Notes under the pieces: generated by a model
What the model saw: only the letters and a program-made list of their open reading frames with translations
The model's database searches: none
Told to the model about the DNA's origin: nothing
Translations under genes and position numbers: made by a program
Part shown: positions 53,169-63,086 of the stretch, piece after piece
How the letters are laid out: the number at the start of each line of letters is the position of its first letter
How positions within the stretch are numbered: position 1 is the stretch's first letter
From: Nitrospirota bacterium
GTDB lineage: Bacteria; Nitrospirota; Nitrospiria; Nitrospirales; Nitrospiraceae
DNA length: 64,000 nt
Direction: 5' to 3'
NCBI GenBank assembly: GCA_030684575.1
Contig: JAUXVD010000014.1
Location: 186,001 to 250,000, forward strand

Positions 53169-54035
53169 ATGACATCCATTTCACGACGCGCTCCGCTGTT
53201 GGTTCCCCGTGCTCTTGTCACGCAGCTCATGGCGCTCTACGATTACCCGCATCCGCTTCATCCTGGCCGGATCATTCGCGGGTACGATCGCCCACATGCC
53301 ATTCGAACGGCGCGGATGTGTGCCGCGGTCGCTGCGGCGCTGGGCCATGGGCCTGAGCGGGTCCGCCAATATCAGATCGCCTGTTTGTTACATGACCTGG
53401 GCCGCGCCGGGCTCGATCGTCAACTCTTCGGGAAGATCTGGTCTTGGGCCAAGGAGCGAGGGATTCCGACGAGACCGCGGGAATGGAGAGCGGTCCATCA
53501 CTACACGTCCTACGGACGCGAGACGGAGGCCTTTCTCCGTTGCTATGGACAGGATCTTGAAGCCGACGGCATCCCGATGACCGCGTGGGCGAAGGAGCAG
53601 GTTGAGATGAGGCTGGGCTATGCGCGGCGGCTGGCCCGCCGGCTGCGGATGGTTCGGCCTGCCATCACGCAGATGGGGATCACGTGGGCGCCTTGGATGC
53701 AGCAGGTGATGCTCTATTATTATTACCCCGAGAAACTGGCGGCGGCCAAGCCCTGGGTGCGGCAGTTGGCGGAGATTCTCGTCGCTTGCGAGCAATTTGA
53801 AGCCTACAGCAATCAGCGGCGCGGCAGGGACTATTATGTGAGGAACAAGGAAACGCTGGTCGATGCCTTTGCCTATTTGGAGACGTTGCGGGCGGAGGGT
53901 ATTTTGAGCAGCGCAGTGATGGAGGCGTTACGCCGGTTGACGGCGCAAGGCGAGTTCGATGCAATTCTGGAGGAGGCTCGCGGCTGTGCCTTCACGAGCG
54001 GCGAGCGACGAGCCCTCCGGGCGATGGAGGCATAA
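53169..54035 (+). CDS. HD-domain phosphohydrolase
   Basis: A 288-residue protein. An HD domain has the metal motif CLLHDLGRAG, preceded by RPHAIRTARMCAAVAAALG and followed by VHHYTSYGRETE. The C-terminal half is helical (LAEILVACEQFEAYSNQR) and carries a compact DYYVRN motif. HD proteins hydrolyse nucleotides or phosphodiesters, and the actual substrate is not evident. It begins a plus-strand series with YjbQ and HtrA, two bases before the former. Confidence 0.82.
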   Translation: MTSISRRAPLLVPRALVTQLMALYDYPHPLHPGRIIRGYDRPHAIRTARMCAAVAAALGHGPERVRQYQIACLLHDLGRAGLDRQLFGKIWSWAKERGIPTRPREWRAVHHYTSYGRETEAFLRCYGQDLEADGIPMTAWAKEQVEMRLGYARRLARRLRMVRPAITQMGITWAPWMQQVMLYYYYPEKLAAAKPWVRQLAEILVACEQFEAYSNQRRGRDYYVRNKETLVDAFAYLETLRAEGILSSAVMEALRRLTAQGEFDAILEEARGCAFTSGERRALRAMEA

Positions 54036-54036
54036 C

Positions 54037-54459
54037 ATGGCGGTGAAAACGGTCTCCTTGCGTCTCCCCATGCAGGGAAACAGCCAGGTCGAAAATCTGA
54101 CGAAAGCCGTGACCGACGCCCTCGCCGGCACGAAGTTGCTGGCCGGGATCGTGACGGTGTTTGTGAAGCACACGACGGCGTCGGTGATGATCATTGAAGA
54201 TGAACCGGGGATCAGGGCCGATACGAAAGTCTTCTGGGATCGGGCGGTGCCGGCCGATCCGGCCTGGCAGCACAATACGAGAAATGCCGGGGAAGACAAC
54301 GGGCACAGTCATCTGCGAGGTCAGCTCCAAGGGCCGTCGGTCACCATTCCCTTCCTGGATGGCGCGATGTTGCTGGGGGCCTGGCAACAGGTCGTCCTCG
54401 TCGATTTTGACACTAAGCCGCGCACCAGGGAACTCATTATCCAGATCATGGGTGAATGA
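54037..54459 (+). CDS. YjbQ/UPF0047 family protein
   Basis: A 140-residue protein of a widespread family with unclear biochemistry (thiamine phosphate synthase-like activity has been reported for relatives). Signature features: VFVKHTTASVMIIEDEPGI, NAGEDNGHSHLRGQLQGPS with the conserved His, and LGAWQQVVLVDFDTKPRTRE. The ATG lies 2 bases after the HD gene. Its stop overlaps the next start (ATGATGG), so the three genes are co-translated. Confidence 0.92.
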   Translation: MAVKTVSLRLPMQGNSQVENLTKAVTDALAGTKLLAGIVTVFVKHTTASVMIIEDEPGIRADTKVFWDRAVPADPAWQHNTRNAGEDNGHSHLRGQLQGPSVTIPFLDGAMLLGAWQQVVLVDFDTKPRTRELIIQIMGE

Positions 54460-55577
54460 TGGCGATGCAGGGGCGAGTCGTGATCTCGGGACTCTTGCTC
54501 GTCAGCCTCTGGCCTGCCCTGTCGATGGCGGAGTGGGGGAAGCCGCTGGGCGGGACCTACGACGGGCCTGAAGGCAAGCCGCGCCTGGTGACACCCTTGC
54601 CCGCCGAGTTGGGCGCGGATGAACGGGCCACCATGGCCGTGTTCGAGCGGGCGACCAAATCCGTGGTCTTCATCGCCAACACCGCGATCCAACGAGACCC
54701 CTGGTCGTTCAATCTGTTTGAAACCCCGCAAGGATCCGGAACGGGATTCGTCTGGAATAAGCAGGGGCACATCGTCACCAATTTTCATGTCGTCTACGGG
54801 GCGAACTCGATCACGGTGACCTTGGCCGACCGGACGGAGCATAAGGCCACCCTCATCGGCGCCGATCCCGATCACGATGTGGCGGTGCTGCAGATTCGTG
54901 CAGCGGAAGAGACGCTGTCGCCTCTTACCGTCGGGACGTCGCAGGATCTACGTGTCGGACAGAAAGTTTTGGCGATCGGGAATCCGTTCGGTCTCGATCA
55001 TACGCTCACGACCGGTGTCGTGAGTGCGCTGGGTCGGACGATCAAGTCCCTGTCGAATCGGACGATCGAAGGCGTCATTCAGACCGATGCCGCCATCAAT
55101 CCTGGCAACTCAGGCGGGCCGCTCCTCGATAGCGCCGGCCGGTTGATCGGCGTGAATACCCAGATTATGAGCCCCAGCGGGGCCTTCGCGGGAATCGGTT
55201 TTGCCGTGCCGGTCGACACGGTCAACCGTATCGTCCCGGAATTGATCAAGCATGGCAAACTCATCCGCCCGGGGCTCGGGGTCTCGCTCATTCCCGATGC
55301 GATGGCGAAGCGGTGGGGCATCAAAGGGCTGATTATCGGGAAGGTGTCGCGTGGGAGCGGCGCGGAGCAGGCGGGGCTGAAGGGGGCGCGTGAAACCGCC
55401 ACCGGCCGGGTGGAATTGGGTGACATCATCACGGCAGTCGACGGCAAGCCGGTTGGAACCCTGGACGAACTGATGGATGTCATGGAACGGCACAAGGTTA
55501 ACGACCAGGTGACGGTTGAGATCCTGCGGGGAACCAATCGGGACCGTGTCTCCGTGACCCTCCAAGCCGTCAATTGA
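54456..55577 (+). CDS. HtrA/DegP-type serine protease with one PDZ domain
   Basis: A 373-residue periplasmic protease/chaperone. A signal peptide (ISGLLLVSLWPALSMA) is followed by a trypsin-like domain with the triad: His in GHIVTNFHVVYG, Asp in DPDHDVAVLQI, Ser in NPGNSGGPLLD. One PDZ domain follows (VSRGSGAEQAGLKGAR, VELGDIITAVDGKPV). Length and single PDZ fit the DegS/HtrA type, but the cleavable-looking signal suggests a soluble form. It ends 75 bases before the proteasome ATPase gene, a possible grouping of two proteolysis systems. Confidence 0.93.
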   Translation: MMAMQGRVVISGLLLVSLWPALSMAEWGKPLGGTYDGPEGKPRLVTPLPAELGADERATMAVFERATKSVVFIANTAIQRDPWSFNLFETPQGSGTGFVWNKQGHIVTNFHVVYGANSITVTLADRTEHKATLIGADPDHDVAVLQIRAAEETLSPLTVGTSQDLRVGQKVLAIGNPFGLDHTLTTGVVSALGRTIKSLSNRTIEGVIQTDAAINPGNSGGPLLDSAGRLIGVNTQIMSPSGAFAGIGFAVPVDTVNRIVPELIKHGKLIRPGLGVSLIPDAMAKRWGIKGLIIGKVSRGSGAEQAGLKGARETATGRVELGDIITAVDGKPVGTLDELMDVMERHKVNDQVTVEILRGTNRDRVSVTLQAVN

Positions 55578-55651
55578 GCGGCAGTGATAAGCGGTAATCC
55601 GAACGGTGGCTATGCTAGGATCATGGATCTGTTCGGTATGGAGGACCACTG

Positions 55652-57409
55652 ATGAGCGATCGTCGATCAAGTAAGTCACAGGACCCGGAGCCCAACGGGA
55701 AGCCAGGGGAGGTTGCGAGCCCCGCGATGGGTGTTGGACCCGATCCACTTGAACTCTTAGAAGAATGTCTCGCCTTATTTCCCGAGAGTGATCCCCGCCA
55801 GAAGATTCTCTACAAACTGCGCCATACCATGATCCTCGGCCAAGCGGCGCAGCAGCAACGGGACGTCGAATTGAAAAAAGTAGCCGACGTCATTGCCAAG
55901 CTGACGGCACCGGCTAATCGGGTCGGTACCCTGCTCGAGGTGCCAGGTGAAGGCCTCGCGCGAATCCTGGTGGGAGGCGCGGAGTATTATGCGTCGGTCG
56001 ACCCGCGGGTGCAGGCTGTCGAACTGAAGATCGGTGCTCAGATTCTGGTCAACGACGCCTATGCGGTGATCAAGGTCTTGGGATATGACCGCAATGGGCC
56101 GGTGTTCAAAGTGGCGGAAGTGCTGGGGGACGGGCGGCTTCGTTTTGAGCATGAGATGGGGCGGCAGGTCATGATCCTTCAGCGGTCGAGCGACCTTGCC
56201 GGTGTGGATTTGAAGGCCGGCGATGAAGTGCGCATCGACCCCAGCCTCCACGTGGCGATCGAAAAAATGGAGGATCGGAAAGCCAAGTCTCACCTCCTCG
56301 ACGAAGTGCCCACGGTGACCTGGGAGCAGATCGGCGGACAAACGGAAGCCATCGCGGCCATTAAGAAGGCCATCGAGTATCCCTTGCTCCATGCGGACAC
56401 GTTTCAGCGGTTTAAGTTTACGCAACCCAAGGGTTTTTTATTGTACGGCCCGCCCGGCTGCGGAAAGACCTTGATCGGGCAGGCGGCCGCCGCCAGTCTT
56501 TCGAAGCTGGTGGGTGAGTCGATCCAGGCGACAGCCGGTGCGAAGGGGGATAAGCCGCCGGTGACCCGCGGGGCATTCCTCCACATCAAGGGGCCTGAGA
56601 TTCTGAATATGTGGTTGGGGGAATCGGAGCGGATGGTTCGCGATCTCTTTGCCCAAGCCCGTGCCCGCCGGAAAGAAGGGGCCTTGCCCTTCATTTTCAT
56701 CGACGAGGCGGAATCGGTGCTCGGCACGCGGCGGGCGTCTCGTTCATTCAATATTTCCAGTACCCTGGTGCCCATGTTCTGTTCTGAGATGGACGGGATC
56801 GAGTCTCTGCACGATGTGGTGATCATTCTGGCCTCGAACCGCCCGGATCTCATCGATCCGGCTGTGCTGCGGCCTGGGCGTATCGATCGCAAGATTAAGG
56901 TGAGCCGTCCGAATCGTGAGTCGGCAGCTGCGATTCTGAACGTGTACCTGACGGATGATCTGCCGTTGGATCGGCAATGGGTCGATCAACATGGGGGGGA
57001 CCGCAAGAAGGCCTCTGCCGATCTCGTCGAGCATGCGTTGTCCGCGGTGTTCTCGCGCAACGATGAGAATCGGCTGCTGTCGATCCGGCTTCGAAGCGGA
57101 CAGAACAAGGTCCTTTATCGGAGCGATCTGATCAGCGGGGCGATCCTGGCTTCGATCGTTCAGCGCGCCAAGGAACAGGCGATCGAGCGGGTGATTGCGG
57201 CAGGCGGGTCCGAGCAGGGGGGCATGACGCTGGATGATCTGGTCAATTCCGTACATGCAGAATTCCGGGAGGGAGAGATGCTCCCACCTGACGATGCGGC
57301 AGAGGAATGGCTGAAGCTCCTCGATCACCATCCGGAGCAAGTCGTAGGAGTCTCTTCGTTCCGGAGAGGGCGGCAGGCAGAAGAGAAGTTGGTGGGACAG
57401 ATTATCTAA
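55652..57409 (+). CDS. mpa: proteasome-associated AAA ATPase (Mpa/ARC)
   Basis: A 585-residue hexameric unfoldase that recognises pupylated proteins and feeds them to the 20S proteasome. An N-terminal coiled coil (about 30-80) for Pup binding is followed by two OB domains (ILVNDAYAVIKVLGY, EVRIDPSLHVAIEKM). The AAA module has Walker A GPPGCGKT (266-273), Walker B FIFIDEAESVL and arginine-finger region RPGRIDRKIKVSRP. The C-terminus is GQII, whereas actinobacterial Mpa ends in GQYL, whose penultimate Tyr inserts into the alpha ring. GGAGG lies before the ATG. It is the first of six Pup-proteasome genes. Confidence 0.95.
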   Translation: MSDRRSSKSQDPEPNGKPGEVASPAMGVGPDPLELLEECLALFPESDPRQKILYKLRHTMILGQAAQQQRDVELKKVADVIAKLTAPANRVGTLLEVPGEGLARILVGGAEYYASVDPRVQAVELKIGAQILVNDAYAVIKVLGYDRNGPVFKVAEVLGDGRLRFEHEMGRQVMILQRSSDLAGVDLKAGDEVRIDPSLHVAIEKMEDRKAKSHLLDEVPTVTWEQIGGQTEAIAAIKKAIEYPLLHADTFQRFKFTQPKGFLLYGPPGCGKTLIGQAAAASLSKLVGESIQATAGAKGDKPPVTRGAFLHIKGPEILNMWLGESERMVRDLFAQARARRKEGALPFIFIDEAESVLGTRRASRSFNISSTLVPMFCSEMDGIESLHDVVIILASNRPDLIDPAVLRPGRIDRKIKVSRPNRESAAAILNVYLTDDLPLDRQWVDQHGGDRKKASADLVEHALSAVFSRNDENRLLSIRLRSGQNKVLYRSDLISGAILASIVQRAKEQAIERVIAAGGSEQGGMTLDDLVNSVHAEFREGEMLPPDDAAEEWLKLLDHHPEQVVGVSSFRRGRQAEEKLVGQII

Positions 57410-57412
57410 GTG

Positions 57413-57508
57413 GGCAGATGGCAGGGGGCTCTCTTTGCTCCCAGTGCGCGCACGATCAGAATGTGCTCGCTCGATGGGCGCAGTCGAGAGCACCTTAGCC
57501 ATCTGCCG
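57413..57508 (+). repeat. covarying hairpin element, copy F
   Basis: Starts 3 bases after the mpa stop. Outer stem GGCAGATGGC...GGGCTCTC with GAGAGCACC...GCCATCTGCC. Core TGCTCCCAGTGCGCGCAC with GTGCTCGCTCGATGGGCGCA: CCCA/TGGG replaces CGCA/TGCG, a compensatory change. Confidence 0.85.
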
Positions 57509-57548
57509 TGAATCTGTCCTTGAGACGGAGTGGGTGACGGAAACGAAG

Positions 57549-59075
57549 ATGCGACTATACGGGATCGAAACAGAATACGGGATTACCAGGGAAGACCAGG
57601 ACACGGTCGATCCGGTGGTGGAGTCGATGGAGCTGGTTCGGGCCCATCTGACGGCTTCGTTTGAGCGGCGCTGGGACTATGGCGGCGAAGATCCGCACGA
57701 GGATGCTCGGGGATTTCGGGTGCTTGGGTTGCAGCAGGATAAAGAAGAAGACGAGTTCGCCAAGGTCGATGCCCATCGGCCTTTTTCGTTTCATGAGATG
57801 AAGAGCGATCTGGTGCTCCCGAACGGCGCCCGCTTCTACAACGACCATACACATCCGGAATATTCCACGCCTGAATGCCGAACGGTGAGAACGCTCCTTG
57901 CCCACGACCGTGCGGGGGAGCGGATTGCCCAGCGGGCGGCGGAGCGGCGCAATCAGGTGCTCGGCGGGTCCCCCCTGCAGCTCTACAAAAACAATACGGA
58001 TTTTCACGGACATAGCTACGGCTGCCATGACAACTATCTTGTCGCGCGCGCGATTCCATTTTCCTCACTGACTGCAGGGATGTTGCCGTTCCTGGTGAGC
58101 CGGCAGGTCATTGCCGGAGCGGGTAAGGTTGGTGTGGAGGGTCAGGAGAGCGGGTTCGTGCCGGGTCAGTACCAGTTGTCTCAGCGGGCCGACTTCATGG
58201 AGACGGATTTGAGCGTCGACACGATGCACAACCGGCCGATTCTGAATACGCGGGACGAACCTCATGCGGTGCGGGAGAAATACCGGCGGCTCCACCTCAT
58301 CATCGGCGATGCCAATATGTGCGAGTACAGCACGGCGCTGAAAGTCGGGACGACACAATTGGCGCTGGAGTTGATCGCACGCAACGCAGCGCCGGCGCTT
58401 GAATTGGAACATCCGGTCACTGCGGTCAAACAGTTGGCTCGCGATCAGAACCTCAAGGCGACGGTGCGTCAGCGAAATGGCCGCACCATCACAGGCCTCG
58501 AGATTCAAGAACAGTATTATCTCGCGGCGGAGAAGCATTTGGCCGGTGCCGATGCAGAGACCGATTGGGTCCTGTCCGAATGGGCCGACACGCTCCGGCT
58601 CCTTGCCGGCGATCGCCGGCAATTGGTGGGGAAGCTCGATTGGGTCACGAAGCTCTGGCTCTTGGAAACCTTTATGCAGGAAGAGCGGATTGGATGGGAC
58701 GATCCCTGGCTGGCGAGTTTAGATTTGGAGTACCATAATGTGAATCCGGAGCGCGGGCTCTTTCTCGGCCTTGAGGCAGAGGGGAAGGCCTGGCGGATGA
58801 CGTCGGAACAGGACGTTGAATCGGCCCTGGTCGCTGGCCCGATCGATACCAGAGGGGGGATTCGCGGCCTCTGCATCAGGCGGTTTCCGGATCAGATCAA
58901 AACGATGCAGTGGGAGCGGATCCAGTTCAGCGGAGGCTTGCTTCCGCGGACGTTGGAAATGGGCGATCTCTTCGAGCCACAGGCGGTGCAGGCCTGTGCG
59001 AAGATCTTTGAGCAGGCGGTGTCCCCGATGGATGCGTTGAACGCATGGAATAGAGAAATGGAGTCCCGATCATGA
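57549..59075 (+). CDS. dop: deamidase/depupylase Dop
   Basis: A 508-residue enzyme of the PafA/Dop carboxylate-amine ligase-like family. Dop removes Pup from substrates and, where needed, converts C-terminal Gln of Pup to Glu. The N-terminus MRLYGIETEYGI carries the catalytic-metal Glu, and LVLPNGARFYNDHTHPEYSTPE and NNTDFHGHSYGCHDNYL follow the family. The residues between FRVLGLQQDKEEDEF and ARFYND include the Dop-specific loop region. ATG 57549 is preferred; the frame continues upstream into hairpin copy F, which makes an earlier start unlikely. Confidence 0.93.
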   Translation: MRLYGIETEYGITREDQDTVDPVVESMELVRAHLTASFERRWDYGGEDPHEDARGFRVLGLQQDKEEDEFAKVDAHRPFSFHEMKSDLVLPNGARFYNDHTHPEYSTPECRTVRTLLAHDRAGERIAQRAAERRNQVLGGSPLQLYKNNTDFHGHSYGCHDNYLVARAIPFSSLTAGMLPFLVSRQVIAGAGKVGVEGQESGFVPGQYQLSQRADFMETDLSVDTMHNRPILNTRDEPHAVREKYRRLHLIIGDANMCEYSTALKVGTTQLALELIARNAAPALELEHPVTAVKQLARDQNLKATVRQRNGRTITGLEIQEQYYLAAEKHLAGADAETDWVLSEWADTLRLLAGDRRQLVGKLDWVTKLWLLETFMQEERIGWDDPWLASLDLEYHNVNPERGLFLGLEAEGKAWRMTSEQDVESALVAGPIDTRGGIRGLCIRRFPDQIKTMQWERIQFSGGLLPRTLEMGDLFEPQAVQACAKIFEQAVSPMDALNAWNREMESRS

Positions 59076-59266
59076 ACTACAGCTCAATGCCGGAACGTCG
59101 TGAAGGGCCAGGCAGCCCGATGCCGAAGGCGCCGAGTCCGTCCGAAGAGGGCGGCGGGCCGAAACGGCCGGAGACCGGGTCGCCGGACAAAGATAATCTG
59201 CTCAAGCGTATGCGCAAGGTCGATCCGAAGCAGGCTGAGCGGTATCGGCAGAGAACAGGGGAGTGA
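59072..59266 (+). CDS. pup: prokaryotic ubiquitin-like protein Pup
   Basis: A 64-residue intrinsically disordered modifier. The N-terminal half is Pro/Gly/Ser-rich (EGPGSPMPKAPSPSEEGG); the C-terminal half is helical and Lys/Arg-rich (KDNLLKRMRKVDPKQAERY). It ends RTGE, already with a C-terminal Glu, so no deamidation by Dop would be needed before ligation by PafA. Most actinobacterial Pups end GGQ or GGE. The ATG overlaps the dop stop (ATGA). Confidence 0.9.
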   Translation: MNYSSMPERREGPGSPMPKAPSPSEEGGGPKRPETGSPDKDNLLKRMRKVDPKQAERYRQRTGE

Positions 59267-59363
59267 GGATGGGCGCCGAGTCTGGGTTTGTGCTCGCGCA
59301 ACGCGCGGCCTAGGAAGGCCCTCGTTGGACGCGCGCAGTGAACCGTGACGTCGGTACCCATCC
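59267..59363 (+). repeat. covarying hairpin element, copy G
   Basis: Starts directly after the pup stop. Outer stem GGATGGGCGCCGAGTC...GGTT with AACC...GACGTCGGTACCCATCC. Core TGCTCGCGCAACGCGCGGCC with GGCCCTCGTTGGACGCGCGCA: CAACG/CGTTG replaces GAACG/CGTTC. Confidence 0.87.
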
Positions 59364-59405
59364 AGATTATGTGGAGTGCGATACGAATAAAGGTGAGGTA
59401 AAGAG

Positions 59406-60179
59406 ATGGGGATGCAAGGGGACTTTCTTCAGCTGTTGAAGGAACAGGGCTACACGTTGGGCGTACCGGCAGCGGTGGGGACCGGCCATGCGCTGACGAA
59501 TGCCACGACGATTTTGGCGTTTAAGTATCGCGATGGTGTCCTGGTGGCCGGCGATCGTCGCGCAACCGCCGGCAATATGGTGATGTACGATCGGACGGAC
59601 AAGGTGTTAGAGATCGATCGGCACAGTGTGATGGCGATTGCCGGCGTGCCGGCGACCGCCTATGAAATGGTGCGGGTCCTGGAGCATTCCTTCAAATATT
59701 ACCGGAGAACGCAGCTCCAGGAGTTGAGTTTCGACGGCAAACTGCGCGCGATCTCCAAGCTCTTAAAGGATAATGTGCCTGCGGCCTTAGCCGGGACTGG
59801 TGCGGTGGTTCCGGTGTTTGCCGGCTACGATTTAGAGCAGGGCTCGGCCAAGATCTATTTCTACGATATTCTGGGGGCGGAGTTTGAAGGTGTGGAGTAT
59901 GCGGTGTCCGGCTCCGGTTCTCCGACGATCCGGGGCATTTTACACTACCTGAATACCTGGGGCGATCAGCCCCTCAATCGGCTCCCTGAAGAGCAGGCCA
60001 TGGTGCAGGCCTTACGGTTGCTCACGAGCGCGGCAGAGTTCGACTCGGCGACCGGCGGTGTCAATCGGGAGGCGAGTCTCTATCCCGTGATCAAGTTGAT
60101 TACCGGGGCCGGCGTGCAGACGGTGCCGGACGCGACCTTGAAACCCCTCTATGAATCACAGGTGGTGCGTTATGTATGA
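59406..60179 (+). CDS. prcB: proteasome beta subunit
   Basis: A 257-residue catalytic subunit of the 20S proteasome. The mature N-terminal Thr is predicted at residue 34 (LTNA/TTILAFKYRDGVL), after a 33-residue propeptide that is shorter than in many actinobacteria. Conserved: VAGDRRATAGNMVMYDRTDK with the active-site Asp and Lys, VMAIAGVPATAYEMVRVLE, and YAVSGSGSPTIRGIL. The start may be ATG 59406 or 59412. Hairpin copy G fills most of the gap to pup. Confidence 0.95.
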   Translation: MGMQGDFLQLLKEQGYTLGVPAAVGTGHALTNATTILAFKYRDGVLVAGDRRATAGNMVMYDRTDKVLEIDRHSVMAIAGVPATAYEMVRVLEHSFKYYRRTQLQELSFDGKLRAISKLLKDNVPAALAGTGAVVPVFAGYDLEQGSAKIYFYDILGAEFEGVEYAVSGSGSPTIRGILHYLNTWGDQPLNRLPEEQAMVQALRLLTSAAEFDSATGGVNREASLYPVIKLITGAGVQTVPDATLKPLYESQVVRYV

Positions 60180-61002
60180 AGAGCCCTATCGCTGGGTCGA
60201 AGCCGTCGGCAATCGACGCCAGTATCTCGATGAACAGTTCAAGCAGGGGAGTCCGGTCGTTGCGTTGACCTATGATGGAGGCATCCTCCTGACGACGGTG
60301 AGCAAAGGAACATCGAAGCTCTACGAGATCTATGACCGATTGGCATTGGGCGGAATGGGGCATCCCACGGATTTGGAAAAGCTTCGCTTTAGCCTGCTTG
60401 AAATGGCGCATGTCGAAGGATTCAACCGTTCGCCCTCCGATGTGACGGGATCGAGGTTGGTGAAATACGGCATCGCCCCTGTCATTAAGCAGGCGTTTGA
60501 GGAAGTGTATAAGGCGCCGTTCATCGTGCGTATTCTTGTGGCCGAGTTGGGGGTGAAGCCGGAGAAGGATGCGATCCTGACGATCAACTACGATGGTACG
60601 TTTGAGGAGTTGACCGGTTGTGCGGTCTTGGCGGCCACTCCAGCTGCCCAGACGAAGATGACGGCCTATCTAAGAGAACAGACGCCTGCCACGCTGTCGT
60701 TGGAGCAGGCCTTGGATCTGGCGCTGCGCGCCTGGGCCATCGGCTCCCTCGCGCATCAACAGGAAGAGACGGATCAACAGGCTGAGCCCGATCCATCTGC
60801 CGGCAACGCTGGTGCAGTGACCTCTCCGGTCCCTAGTGCCGACGTGCTGATGGCGCATGTGCGTGGCATTGCCGGAGGGCGGTCCCTTGAATGTGCCGTT
60901 CTTGAGCGCCAGGCTCCCGGTACGTCCAAGTATCGGGCGTTGAAGCCGTCCGATCTGGCACGACTTCTCCCGAAGTCACTTCAATCCGCCGTGGCGAACT
61001 GA
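60172..61002 (+). CDS. prcA: proteasome alpha subunit
   Basis: A 276-residue structural ring subunit that gates the 20S core and docks the ATPase. Proteasome-fold features: VVALTYDGGILLTTVSKGTSKLYEIYDRLALGGMG and LVAELGVKPEKDAILTINYDG. There is no catalytic N-terminal Thr. The last 80 residues (EETDQQAEPDPSAGNAGAVT onward) are an acidic, low-complexity tail and a short helix, longer than usual. The start ATG 60172 overlaps prcB by 8 bases. The alpha N-terminus MYEEPYRWVEAVGN would form the gate. Confidence 0.93.
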   Translation: MYEEPYRWVEAVGNRRQYLDEQFKQGSPVVALTYDGGILLTTVSKGTSKLYEIYDRLALGGMGHPTDLEKLRFSLLEMAHVEGFNRSPSDVTGSRLVKYGIAPVIKQAFEEVYKAPFIVRILVAELGVKPEKDAILTINYDGTFEELTGCAVLAATPAAQTKMTAYLREQTPATLSLEQALDLALRAWAIGSLAHQQEETDQQAEPDPSAGNAGAVTSPVPSADVLMAHVRGIAGGRSLECAVLERQAPGTSKYRALKPSDLARLLPKSLQSAVAN

Positions 61003-61003
61003 G

Positions 61004-62488
61004 ATGTTGAACCGTATTTTCGGACTTGAAACCGAGTACGGACTCTTGGTGAACCAAGAGCTGCCCGATCATACGCCTACCTGGTTTGCCCACAAGATTC
61101 GAGACCATCTGTTTCACGTCCAACGGCGTGGGGTGCTGGATCTGCACCATCGTGGGCACGATGAACCGCCGGGTAACGGAGGATTTCTCACCAACGCCGG
61201 GCGCATGTACCTCGACATGGGACATCTGGAATGGGCCTCGCCGGAATGTGAGTCGCTCAGCGATGTCGTGGCTGCCGACCGTGCCGGCGATCAGTTGCTG
61301 CAGGATGCCGTTGAAGACCTCGGTCTGGCCGATCAGGTGTCGTTGATCAAAAACAATGTGGACCATGAAACCGATGCGACCTTCGGGTCGCACGAGAACT
61401 TTCTCGTGTCGAGACGGTTCCCCTTTACCAGGCGCGGCCTTGGGCCCCTGGTCACCTTTCTCGTCACCAGACAGATTTTTACGGGAGCCGGGCGTGTCGG
61501 GACCGCCGGGCCCCAGGACGCGTGGATTCAGATGGACCGGCTCATCGTGCCGCGGGGCGCGAATCAGCGCCATGGGCAGCATCCTGCCATGCCGTTTCAG
61601 ATTTCTCAGCGCGCCGATTACATCGTGAATGATTTCTTCGAATGGGTGCAGCAGAATCGTGCCATTGTGAATACGAGAGATGAACCGCTGGCAGACCCGA
61701 ATCAATACCGCCGTATTCATCTCCTCCTCGGTGATTCCAATATGGCGGAGGTGGCGACGGCCTTGAAGTTGGGTACAACAGGGTTGGTGCTGCAACTGAT
61801 CGAAGAGGGCCATGCCCCGATCGACCTGGAGCTCCATGAGCCGGTTGAAACCATGCAGGAACTGTCTCAGGATCAGGACCGGCAATGGATTGTGCAGCTG
61901 CAATCGGGGAAGTCGATTTCCGCCATCGACATTCAGGAGGCCTTTCTCGCCGCGGCGCAAGCCCACTATCGTGGGCAGGACGGCGAAACCGATTGGGTGC
62001 TCGATCAATGGGAAGCGGTGTTGCAGGACCTCCGCGGGGATTACACCAAGCTAGTCGGTCGGGTTGATTGGGCCTCGAAGCTCTGGCTGCTTGACACCTT
62101 CCGGGAGGCGGAGCAGTTGACCTGGGCGGATCCGGCGTTGAAGAGCCTCGATCTGGAATATCACAATCTCCATCAAGGCAAGGGGCTCTACTTTGGACTT
62201 ATGGAGGAAGGCCGGGTTCCGCGCCTCACCACCGACAAGGCGATTGCCTTGGCCATGGACCATCCGCCCCGCAATACCAGAGCCTTTGGTCGCGGCGAAC
62301 TCGTTCGGCATTTGCTGGCCAGTGGACTGCCCGATGAACCGGCAGATTCCAGTCCGGAAGAGCGATTCTCCCCATCCTATGTGATCAACTGGTCGATCTT
62401 CCAATTGCGCGGGCAGGCGCCTTTCCCCATGCCGGATCCCTTCAAAACCTACGTGCAGGAAGTACGGACGCATCTGCAATCGGTGTAG
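61004..62488 (+). CDS. pafA: Pup--protein ligase PafA
   Basis: A 494-residue ATP-dependent ligase joining the C-terminal Glu of Pup to lysines of target proteins. NRIFGLETEYGLLVNQE gives the catalytic Glu; YLDMGHLEWASPECES, KNNVDHETDATFGSHENFLV and RGANQRHGQHPAM follow the family. It is homologous to Dop, encoded earlier in the same operon. It starts 2 bases after prcA and is the last gene of the proteasome set. Confidence 0.95.
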   Translation: MLNRIFGLETEYGLLVNQELPDHTPTWFAHKIRDHLFHVQRRGVLDLHHRGHDEPPGNGGFLTNAGRMYLDMGHLEWASPECESLSDVVAADRAGDQLLQDAVEDLGLADQVSLIKNNVDHETDATFGSHENFLVSRRFPFTRRGLGPLVTFLVTRQIFTGAGRVGTAGPQDAWIQMDRLIVPRGANQRHGQHPAMPFQISQRADYIVNDFFEWVQQNRAIVNTRDEPLADPNQYRRIHLLLGDSNMAEVATALKLGTTGLVLQLIEEGHAPIDLELHEPVETMQELSQDQDRQWIVQLQSGKSISAIDIQEAFLAAAQAHYRGQDGETDWVLDQWEAVLQDLRGDYTKLVGRVDWASKLWLLDTFREAEQLTWADPALKSLDLEYHNLHQGKGLYFGLMEEGRVPRLTTDKAIALAMDHPPRNTRAFGRGELVRHLLASGLPDEPADSSPEERFSPSYVINWSIFQLRGQAPFPMPDPFKTYVQEVRTHLQSV

Positions 62489-62624
62489 TCTGATTGGGCC
62501 TGCCTGCTTTCTCCATTTCGTCGCAGAACAGATTGAATACGTGGATAAGTTGCCGAGGTGCTATGCTTCTCTATGGCGTAACCCCACTGGGCTGATGGTA
62601 TAGGCGCGATTGAGGGAGGGCAGC

Positions 62625-63086
62625 ATGAAGGCACGTAAATGGATGATGGAATATGGAGTGGCGATGGCGCTGACGTTTTTGTTCGCTGTGATACTGGGGC
62701 ATATCCCGCTGTTTCGTGAGACCACCGTGGGGAAGCTGCGGGCCTCAGATCTGGTGCAATGTATCGGATATGGGGGTGTACTGGTGATTGCTTGGCTCGG
62801 AGCCCGTCAATTGACCGCAGAGCCACCGGATGAGTGGAAGTGGATCATGCCCTACCGGGCATTAATTTTACCGGTGACGACCTTCGCAATTGTGTCGATG
62901 GCCCATGGTGTGTTGCTCTACGTCTGTGATCCGTTTCTCAGCAAGTCAGGAAAAGGGATCTATAACTGGATGTTTATCGCCGGCATTATGGCGACCAGTG
63001 CCTGGCTCATTGTGACGTGGGTCAGGAAGTGCGCACATCAGGTCGCTGAAGTGGAGTCCCGACGATTGAACAAGCAAGCAGCCTAG
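62625..63086 (+). CDS. membrane protein of unknown function
   Basis: A 153-residue protein with four hydrophobic helices (VAMALTFLFAVILGHIPLF, VQCIGYGGVLVIAWLGA, ALILPVTTFAIVSMAHGVLL, WMFIAGIMATSAWLIVTW) and a basic C-terminus. No family was recognised. ATG 62625 follows GAGGGAGGG; a TTG five codons earlier is less likely. It lies 136 bases after pafA and may or may not be co-transcribed. Confidence 0.7.
   Translation: MKARKWMMEYGVAMALTFLFAVILGHIPLFRETTVGKLRASDLVQCIGYGGVLVIAWLGARQLTAEPPDEWKWIMPYRALILPVTTFAIVSMAHGVLLYVCDPFLSKSGKGIYNWMFIAGIMATSAWLIVTWVRKCAHQVAEVESRRLNKQAA

Follow-up and report, generated by a model that had tools for sequence, protein, structure and literature searches.

Does a proteasome operon found outside Actinobacteria encode a transferred Pup-proteasome or a system of another kind? 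The question is raised by positions 55652-62488 of the window, a stretch of 64,000 nucleotides from a Nitrospirota genome that was analysed as a whole. Six intact ORFs were read there on the + strand in the order mpa-dop-ubact-prcB-prcA-pafA, and the profile search gave domain matches to a proteasomal ATPase, two Pup_ligase proteins and two proteasome subunits, which bears out the claim of an earlier note that the region holds a complete tag-proteasome operon. Its features are:

55652..57409, + strand: mpa, UBact-type proteasomal ATPase of 585 aa (AAA domain PF00004, 6e-29; proteasomal OB domains PF17758, 6e-17, and PF16450, 2.5e-10)
57395..57406, + strand: codons of the C-terminal tail of Mpa, GQII, lacking the penultimate Tyr of GQYL/HbYX tails (read from the DNA)
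57549..59075, + strand: dop-type depupylase/deamidase homologue of the UBact system (PF03136, 3e-161; TIGR03688, 456 bits)
59072..59266, + strand: ubact, tag of 64 aa ending RTGE (PF20513, 7.3e-22; NF033388, 81.3 bits)
59406..60179, + strand: prcB, catalytic subunit of the UBact 20S, with codon 34 for the mature Thr1 (PF00227, 1.3e-25)
60172..61002, + strand: prcA, alpha subunit of the UBact 20S (PF00227, 2.8e-8; TIGR03691, 83 bits, under its cut-off)
61004..62488, + strand: pafA-type ligase homologue of the UBact system, without a Dop-type loop (PF03136, 9e-130)

The dop gene most likely starts at ATG 57549 and not at TTG 57435, 114 bases upstream in a frame that is also open; its stop codon overlaps the ubact start (ATGA). 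The start of prcA was placed at 60172, where the protein begins with MYEEPYRW as in relatives. This is the most likely position, and 60151, which overlaps prcB, is also possible. Scanning of 55400-62700 for sigma-70 sites gave one where 2.5 were expected, and thus no promoter evidence, and the seven terminator-like sites of the same interval (5.1 expected) provided nothing usable.

The tag of the operon is UBact. It matches the UBact models PF20513 (E 7e-22, 77.3 bits, cut-off 27.8) and NF033388 (E 4e-23, 81.3 bits, cut-off 35) and gives no match up to E 1 with the Pup model PF05639, whose only match in the whole genome is a different gene on contig C8. The final codons ACA GGG GAG TGA (59255-59266) read TGE and not the GGQ or GGE of Pup. 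Matches of 30 bits or more were used for counting tag and tail ends: UBact terminates in RTGE in 38 of 49 loci and in RTGQ in 11, Gly-Glu and Gly-Gln ends that suit PF03136 enzymes, and Pup-type tags in GGE (33/41) or GGQ (8/41). The "Pup ending TGE" of the earlier note was therefore right about the end and wrong about the tag. A sequencing or frameshift artefact is refuted by the 80 named loci, of which 79 have a tag ending in TGE (57) or TGQ (22). In the operon UBact is encoded together with two PF03136 enzymes, a proteasomal ATPase and 20S subunits, and each of the 49 loci that have a UBact-type dop contains the tag. The UBact conjugation-proteasome system reportedly goes back to Lehmann et al. 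2017 (BBRC 483:946), the family being named in 2017. The operon is of this known kind and not a new type; in annotation, such operons should carry the label UBact, not Pup.

The genome of the window encodes a second complete set, of Pup type. It lies on a different contig, where pup is separated from the other genes of the set by about 50 kb. There are exactly one UBact, one Pup, four PF03136 genes and four PF00227 subunits, and two proteins score as proteasomal ATPases (737 and 436 bits, the next best reaching 149). The ordinary reading, close to that of the earlier note, is a single Pup-proteasome operon of actinobacterial type, acquired by transfer, with a diverged Pup and Mpa tail. The gene order is indeed as in actinobacterial Pup operons and the enzymes belong to PF03136, but this reading is refuted by the family of the tag and by the genuine Pup with its second full set in the same genome. 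UBact-type proteins moreover fall outside Pup-type plus actinobacterial ones in every tree, and we find the single-operon reading hardly credible. We consider it quite probable that the operon is a complete UBact-proteasome system in an organism that also has a complete Pup-proteasome system, each most likely serving its own pathway.

Both tags are present in 123 of 395 Nitrospirota genomes; 60 genomes have Pup only and 10 UBact only. Nitrospira moscoviensis and Ca. N. defluvii carry both tags on their chromosomes. Exactly four PF03136 (PafA/Dop) genes were counted in 117 of the 123. No mixed-type operon was seen among 105 loci read. Four of the loci (L111, L113, L169, L178) are cut by contig ends, which explains or may explain why genes are missing from them; at locus L077 (genome G129) a UBact-type PrcB was not seen and PrcA is a piece of 35 bits, and this locus was retained in the remaining counts. 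The last residues of the two tags of one genome show no coupling (UBact/Pup: 19 E/E, 7 Q/E, 5 E/Q). In a profile scan of contigs, the best 80 of 293 UBact-like places carry the titles Nitrospira, Nitrospiraceae, Nitrospirae or Nitrospirota, with two exceptions. These two are titled 'uncultured Nitrosospira'.

Trees were built from selected genomes, 27 or 16 of those read. UBact-type Mpa separates from Pup-type plus actinobacterial Mpa with support 100, and UBact-type PrcA and PrcB do so with 100/100. In the ligase-family tree the two UBact enzymes group together, apart from Pup-type plus actinobacterial enzymes (99/97). An independent origin of the UBact and Pup ligases is a possibility, with a long PafA-type stem and a single ligase clade that the AU test does not reject (p 0.092). 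The UBact and Pup sets, both of them old, co-diverge: for five proteins compared over 37 to 39 genomes, Mantel r lies between 0.78 and 0.96.

The Mpa of the window has two OB domains and an AAA domain with Walker A, an acidic Walker B and a pore loop. GPPGCGKT is found in 47/47 UBact-type Mpa, whose pore loop is NMW(L/V)G and which share about 33% identity with their Pup-type counterparts in the same genomes. Against TIGR03689 the window protein scores 436 bits, the equivalog cut-off being 505; it is not of the same equivalog, though its mode of action is probably that of an Mpa. Its last codons, GGA CAG ATT ATC TAA (57395-57409), encode GQII. None of the 47 UBact-type Mpa (that of the window and 46 others) has a penultimate Tyr, the residue being Ile (40), Val (6) or Lys (1); 17 end in QII and most others in two aliphatic residues or I-E. 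All 56 Pup-type Mpa of the phylum end in GHYL or GHYF, and in the 37 genomes where both proteins were read the tail Tyr is present in 37 Pup-type and 0 UBact-type Mpa. Of the 78 Mpa tails read in the 80 named loci, 77 end in -II. Codons and relatives thus confirm the tail without docking Tyr announced in the earlier note, and the aligned tails dispose of an artefact of sequencing or frameshift. Tails without Tyr occur also in the UBact-only genomes G019, G066 and G097 (completeness 99, 80 and 64%), where Pup was not found; the tail is therefore not just a remnant tolerated thanks to the second ATPase. The suggestion that this ATPase may engage the alpha ring differently is reasonable. AlphaFold models of UBact-type Mpa (pLDDT 57) and PafA (pLDDT 47) are poor and support nothing.

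Absence of the Tyr from every UBact-type tail would also suit a free unfoldase that does not dock at all, the UBact 20S then working alone or with another activator; in the excerpt considered of PMC3511204, ATPases of actinobacteria without 20S genes are likewise devoid of a docking motif. However, the aliphatic tail is itself conserved, in particular its penultimate Ile, and the 20S genes share the operon with mpa. Their product has the residues of an active 20S: Thr1, Asp17 and Lys33 of PrcB are present in 48/48 aligned UBact-type and 55/55 Pup-type subunits (PrcA and PrcB rows longer than 180 aa entered the alignments and tree). We regard a free unfoldase as quite improbable and retain docking of the UBact-type Mpa on its own 20S as the more likely reading.

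The same alignments bear on whether proteolysis is shared. The tagging arms could be separate while both ATPases or both 20S types combine, making the Mpa and 20S of the window partly interchangeable with the other set. Both PrcA types retain the Lys of the pocket into which ATPase tails insert (48/48 UBact-type, 55/55 Pup-type), and the pore loops of both Mpa types keep an aromatic-hydrophobic-Gly pattern, as sharing would have it. On the other hand, the two PrcA types have different N-terminal gate regions (EEPYRW in UBact-type, PYYVSPEQ in Pup-type), the 20S trees split, the Mpa tails differ in all 37 paired genomes, and three complete UBact-type operons (L119, L127, L128) come from genomes where Pup was not found. 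Shared proteolysis appears rather unlikely to us, and two pathways with their own proteasomes remain the preferred reading.

Alignment of enzyme rows longer than 350 aa informs on the conjugation chemistry. In UBact-type Dop, a stretch resembling the Dop-loop, with DARGF, is retained, as is the DHTHPEYS strand. UBact-type PafA has the equivalents of C. glutamicum PafA D64, R137, R201, R207, R218, R418 and W440 in 49/49 sequences and no Dop-type loop in any of the 49, and its alpha-loop differs, FFEWVQ replacing SSATT. R201 and further active-site residues are identical in UBact-type and Pup-type enzymes; like the alpha-ring pocket Lys common to both sets, this would be compatible with cross-talk. 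The window PafA scores alike against TIGR03686 and TIGR03688 (327 and 320 bits), both times under the cut-offs. Of the 49 UBact, 11 end in Gln; Glu forms occur in the same families, as in family f1 with 10 Glu and 7 Gln C-termini, so the Dop of the UBact family very likely keeps deamidation. A Dop confined to depupylation, as the earlier note proposed, is possible in the species of the window but hardly across the family.

The two tags are oppositely charged: the net charge of residues -30 to -2 is +3 to +6 in UBact (n=49) and -8 to -3 in Pup (n=41). UBact-type enzymes are more acidic than their Pup-type counterparts in 36/39 (Dop) and 38/39 (PafA) paired genomes, and charge is reversed in both at C. 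glutamicum positions 345 and 362 (fragment numbers 340 and 357, plus five). This acidic shift gives a hint only of a match to tag charge. PrcA shares it (33/38 paired genomes), the shift is reversed in Mpa, where the UBact-type is more acidic in only 3/37, and an inversion of charge in the Mpa helices matching the tags was not seen (mean -0.2 versus -1.2). Charge complementarity between tag and partners was set aside on these grounds.

We infer the chemistry, the docking mode and the separateness of the pathways as follows. The PafA-type enzyme of the operon would activate the C-terminal Glu of UBact and link UBact to lysines, and the Dop-type enzyme would take it off, after deamidating it first in relatives whose UBact ends in Gln. 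N-terminal helices of the UBact-type Mpa may catch the tag, the substrate being unfolded and fed to the 20S of the operon's PrcA and PrcB, on which the ATPase would dock by its aliphatic tail instead of the HbYX Tyr. The Pup set would act likewise, with Pup and a GHYL/GHYF tail, the two pathways being mostly insulated from each other. A tentative extension, possible but on balance doubtful, is that most Nitrospiraceae and many other Nitrospirota have two insulated ubiquitin-like tagging/proteasome pathways with opposite-charge tags, two docking codes (HbYX and an aliphatic, Tyr-free one) and a UBact ligase/depupylase split separate from the PafA/Dop split, the ligase having arisen twice.

Nitrospira play a central part as nitrite oxidisers and comammox bacteria, and having two routes of degradation may be relevant to how they respond to stress. 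With two complete proteasome pathways per cell, the partner fidelity of tag, ligase, unfoldase and proteasome can be asked directly, which organisms with a single system cannot reveal. The Tyr-free tail, constant in the UBact-type ATPases read, offers a natural test of the need for HbYX in 20S docking and opening. The UBact machine was already known; what its pairing with Pup and its distinct docking tail add is a way to test for separate tagging pathways in bacteria.

The operon of the window shares with the UBact system of Lehmann et al. 2017 the tag family, homologous conjugation enzymes and proteasome, and occurrence in Gram-negative bacteria. It resembles the actinobacterial Pup-proteasome (Mpa/ARC, Dop, Pup, PrcBA, PafA) in gene order, roles, catalytic residues of PafA, Dop and PrcB, and the Mpa pore-loop pattern, but differs from it by tag family, tag charge and the lack of a GQYL/HbYX tail; identity to M. 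tuberculosis Mpa is about 34% for the UBact-type and 56% for the Pup-type of the same phylum. Compared with HbYX/GQYL docking as treated in the excerpt of PMC8755798, the short C-terminal tail with its free carboxylate and the alpha-ring pocket Lys are alike, whereas the penultimate residue is aliphatic, not Tyr, in 46/47 UBact-type Mpa. Two copies of the system, L1 and L2, were reported in 2012 in Leptospirillum ferrooxidans, where, in the excerpt of that report (PMC3511204), the L2 tag has no terminal GGE, which fits UBact. That report, as far as its excerpt goes, deals with one species and predates the UBact name; the present analysis extends the pairing to 123/395 genomes with matched partner counts, tails and co-divergence.

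The window carries a single cluster of six intact ORFs at 55652-62488, all on the + strand:

55652-57409, + strand: mpa, intact ORF
57549-59075, + strand: dop, intact ORF; a longer frame starts from TTG at 57435
59072-59266, + strand: tag gene (ubact), intact ORF
59406-60179, + strand: prcB, intact ORF
60172-61002, + strand: prcA, intact ORF; alternative start at 60151
61004-62488, + strand: pafA, intact ORF

The earlier note described these genes as a complete Pup-proteasome operon. Domain searches bear it out for all genes except the tag, which matches UBact (PF20513, 7.3e-22; NF033388, 4.3e-23), a tag whose name reportedly comes from Lehmann et al. 2017, and does not match any Pup model. 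The label Pup is wrong; as UBact operons go, this one is ordinary. The GQII end of Mpa and the TGE end of the tag are real, as the terminal codons of both genes, read directly, show. Directly upstream of mpa (53959-55577) lie a YjbQ/UPF0047 gene and a gene for a trypsin-like protease with a PDZ domain; within the window's family (f1) they are retained near the UBact operon in 11 and 13 of 16 stretches, respectively. Both are present in 50/50 named stretches longer than 12 kb, and outside f1 they hardly ever occur near a UBact operon. Between ubact and prcB lies an intergenic repeat some 52 bases long (59289-59340). Contig C8 of the same assembly has near copies of it, four of them in fetched stretch L070 and a fifth in L071, and 23 bases of it recur at window 40856.

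The Pup model, run against the assembly that holds the window (99.84% complete, 23 contigs), finds one gene, on contig C8, and none in the window:

C8, 792129-792317 (L070, 7124-7321): pup, match to the Pup model, 65 aa, ending VQKGGE

It is flanked by the H+-pyrophosphatase gene hppA and by recJ. About 50 kb away on C8, behind a thiamine-phosphate synthase gene, sits an mpa-dop-prcB-prcA-pafA set that has no tag gene within it and whose Mpa ends in TGHYL. The whole genome holds exactly four PF03136 genes (PafA/Dop enzymes), four PF00227 subunits (20S), one UBact and one Pup. Two proteasomal ATPases score 737 and 436 bits, the next AAA protein 149.

This pairing is widespread. One set of 395 Nitrospirota genomes, searched alike for the three families, gives Pup in 183, UBact in 133 and PF03136 in 196; both tags occur in 123, Pup only in 60, UBact only in 10 and neither in 202 (Fisher odds ratio 41, for genomes that are related and hence not independent). 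Two-tag genomes have exactly four PF03136 genes in 117 cases, three in four and two in two. Two such genes are found in 45/60 Pup-only genomes and in six UBact-only ones, the other four of which have four; these counts indicate that in some single-tag genomes the other tag has probably been lost or goes unseen. Several single-contig assemblies, including G055, hold UBact and Pup on one chromosome, and Pup is also present in the genomes from which the UBact loci of Nitrospira moscoviensis, Ca. Nitrospira defluvii and Nitrospira sp. UBC2 come (3/3); contamination is therefore ruled out as the source of two-tag genomes. Another single-contig genome, G139, has a full UBact and a second, weak UBact-like match (C1:1039919-1040017; 26 bits, under the cut-off).

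Each ORF of 120 stretches fetched around tag or proteasome genes was scored against the window set (UBact-type) and the C8 set (Pup-type). None is of mixed type, whether among the 49 loci that have a UBact-type dop or among the 56 that have a Pup-type dop plus its mpa or prcB. The UBact gene is present in 49/49. In the Pup-type loci pup is present in 25 and missing from 31, namely every one of the 21 in f1 and of the 7 in f2, and the only locus each from f3, f4 and f11, the f11 stretch having nothing visible after dop. It lies between hppA and recJ in 11/11 f1 stretches examined and adjoins recJ or relA in all four examined of f2. In these two families pup has moved out of its operon, uncoupling Pup supply from its enzymes, and UBact is still in its own. 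One UBact operon (L077, contig C37 of genome G129) has no readable PrcB, only a piece of PrcA and the Mpa tail APKN; it is a defective system or was misassembled.

The GQII tail is no artefact either when C-termini are compared across Nitrospirota: the penultimate Tyr is found in 0/47 UBact-type Mpa (NQII 11, RAIE 7, GQII 4, RTIE 3, the rest various) versus 56/56 of the Pup-type (GHYL 43, GHYF 13). Where both Mpa of a genome were read (37 genomes), Tyr is in none of the UBact-type and all of the Pup-type tails, and it is also absent in three genomes where UBact alone was found. In 80 named loci, which overlap with the first set, 77 of 78 Mpa end in -II, the exception being RRSG. In the first set UBact ends in RTGE (38 of 49) or RTGQ (11), Pup in GGE (33 of 41) or GGQ (8). 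Within f1 the last UBact residue varies (10 Glu versus 7 Gln), and no coupling is seen between the Glu/Gln states of UBact and Pup of the same genome. A Gln-ending tag requires a deamidase in known Pup chemistry, according to the available part of PMC7947786, and by this analogy the UBact-family Dop very likely retains deamidase activity.

In trees, one branch parts UBact-type proteins from Pup-type Nitrospirota and actinobacterial ones (support 100 for Mpa, 100/100 for PrcA and PrcB, 99/97 for the enzymes), and the families of the phylum reappear inside both sets. UBact-set and Pup-set distances over 37 to 39 genomes correlate (Mantel r 0.96 for Mpa, 0.94 for Dop, 0.89 for PrcB, 0.78 for PrcA, 0.87 for PafA; 0.62 to 0.72 within f1 alone). 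The two systems have therefore long been inherited together. Recent duplication is ruled out, the two Mpa of one genome being 33% identical. Window dop and pafA types group together and not with the C8 Dop and PafA, respectively (99/97), a grouping that would imply two separate ligase/depupylase splits; one ligase clade is not rejected by an AU test (p 0.092). The tree thus gives a hint of separate splits.

We infer that the two sets form parallel pathways. Their insulation is favoured by one-type operons, matched gene counts, separate descent, Mpa tails and gate regions that differ between the sets, and C-terminal tag parts of opposite charge (UBact +3 to +6; Pup -8 to -3). Against it, or neutral, are the lack of a charge inversion in the Mpa helices to pair with the opposite tags, an acidic shift that is general and includes PrcA, active-site arginines identical in both sets, and structure prediction, which gave no usable model.

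PrcB Thr1, Asp17 and Lys33 and the PrcA pocket Lys (Lys52 of M. tuberculosis), which receives ATPase tails, are kept in 48/48 UBact-type and 55/55 Pup-type proteins. Mpa Walker A does not vary within either set, and the pore loops read NMW(L/V)G in UBact-type and mostly NKYVG in Pup-type Mpa. The UBact PafA-type enzyme has equivalents of C. glutamicum PafA D64, R137, R201, R207, R218, R418 and W440 in 49/49. In the available parts of the respective papers, R137, R207 and R218 serve substrate guidance (PMC10465538), R201 contacts the end of Pup (PMC8599861), and R418 and W440 contact nucleotide (PMC12053664). The Dop-type loop is present in the UBact Dop-type enzyme and absent from the PafA-type one. 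Since the alpha-loop of the latter is unlike that of known PafA, its sequence makes it only a likely ligase.

What stands out is the second system, together with the consistent docking-tail difference. Within the accessible portions of open-access literature, including PMC11475706, PMC8665760, PMC11354881 and PMC12288473, no mention was found of UBact/Pup pairing throughout the genus or of UBact-type tails without the Tyr, a slight indication that both are new. As far as the accessible text of each source goes, Pup in Nitrospirae was reported in 2008 (PMC2588565), a Dop/PafA tree of 2020 includes Nitrospirae and leaves UBact unmentioned (PMC7947786), and a 2012 review describes two systems in L. 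ferrooxidans (PMC3511204). Unlike this account of Leptospirillum ferrooxidans, genome G019 (stretch L119, family f22; a single contig of 2,559,538 bases) has UBact, no Pup match and two PF03136 genes.
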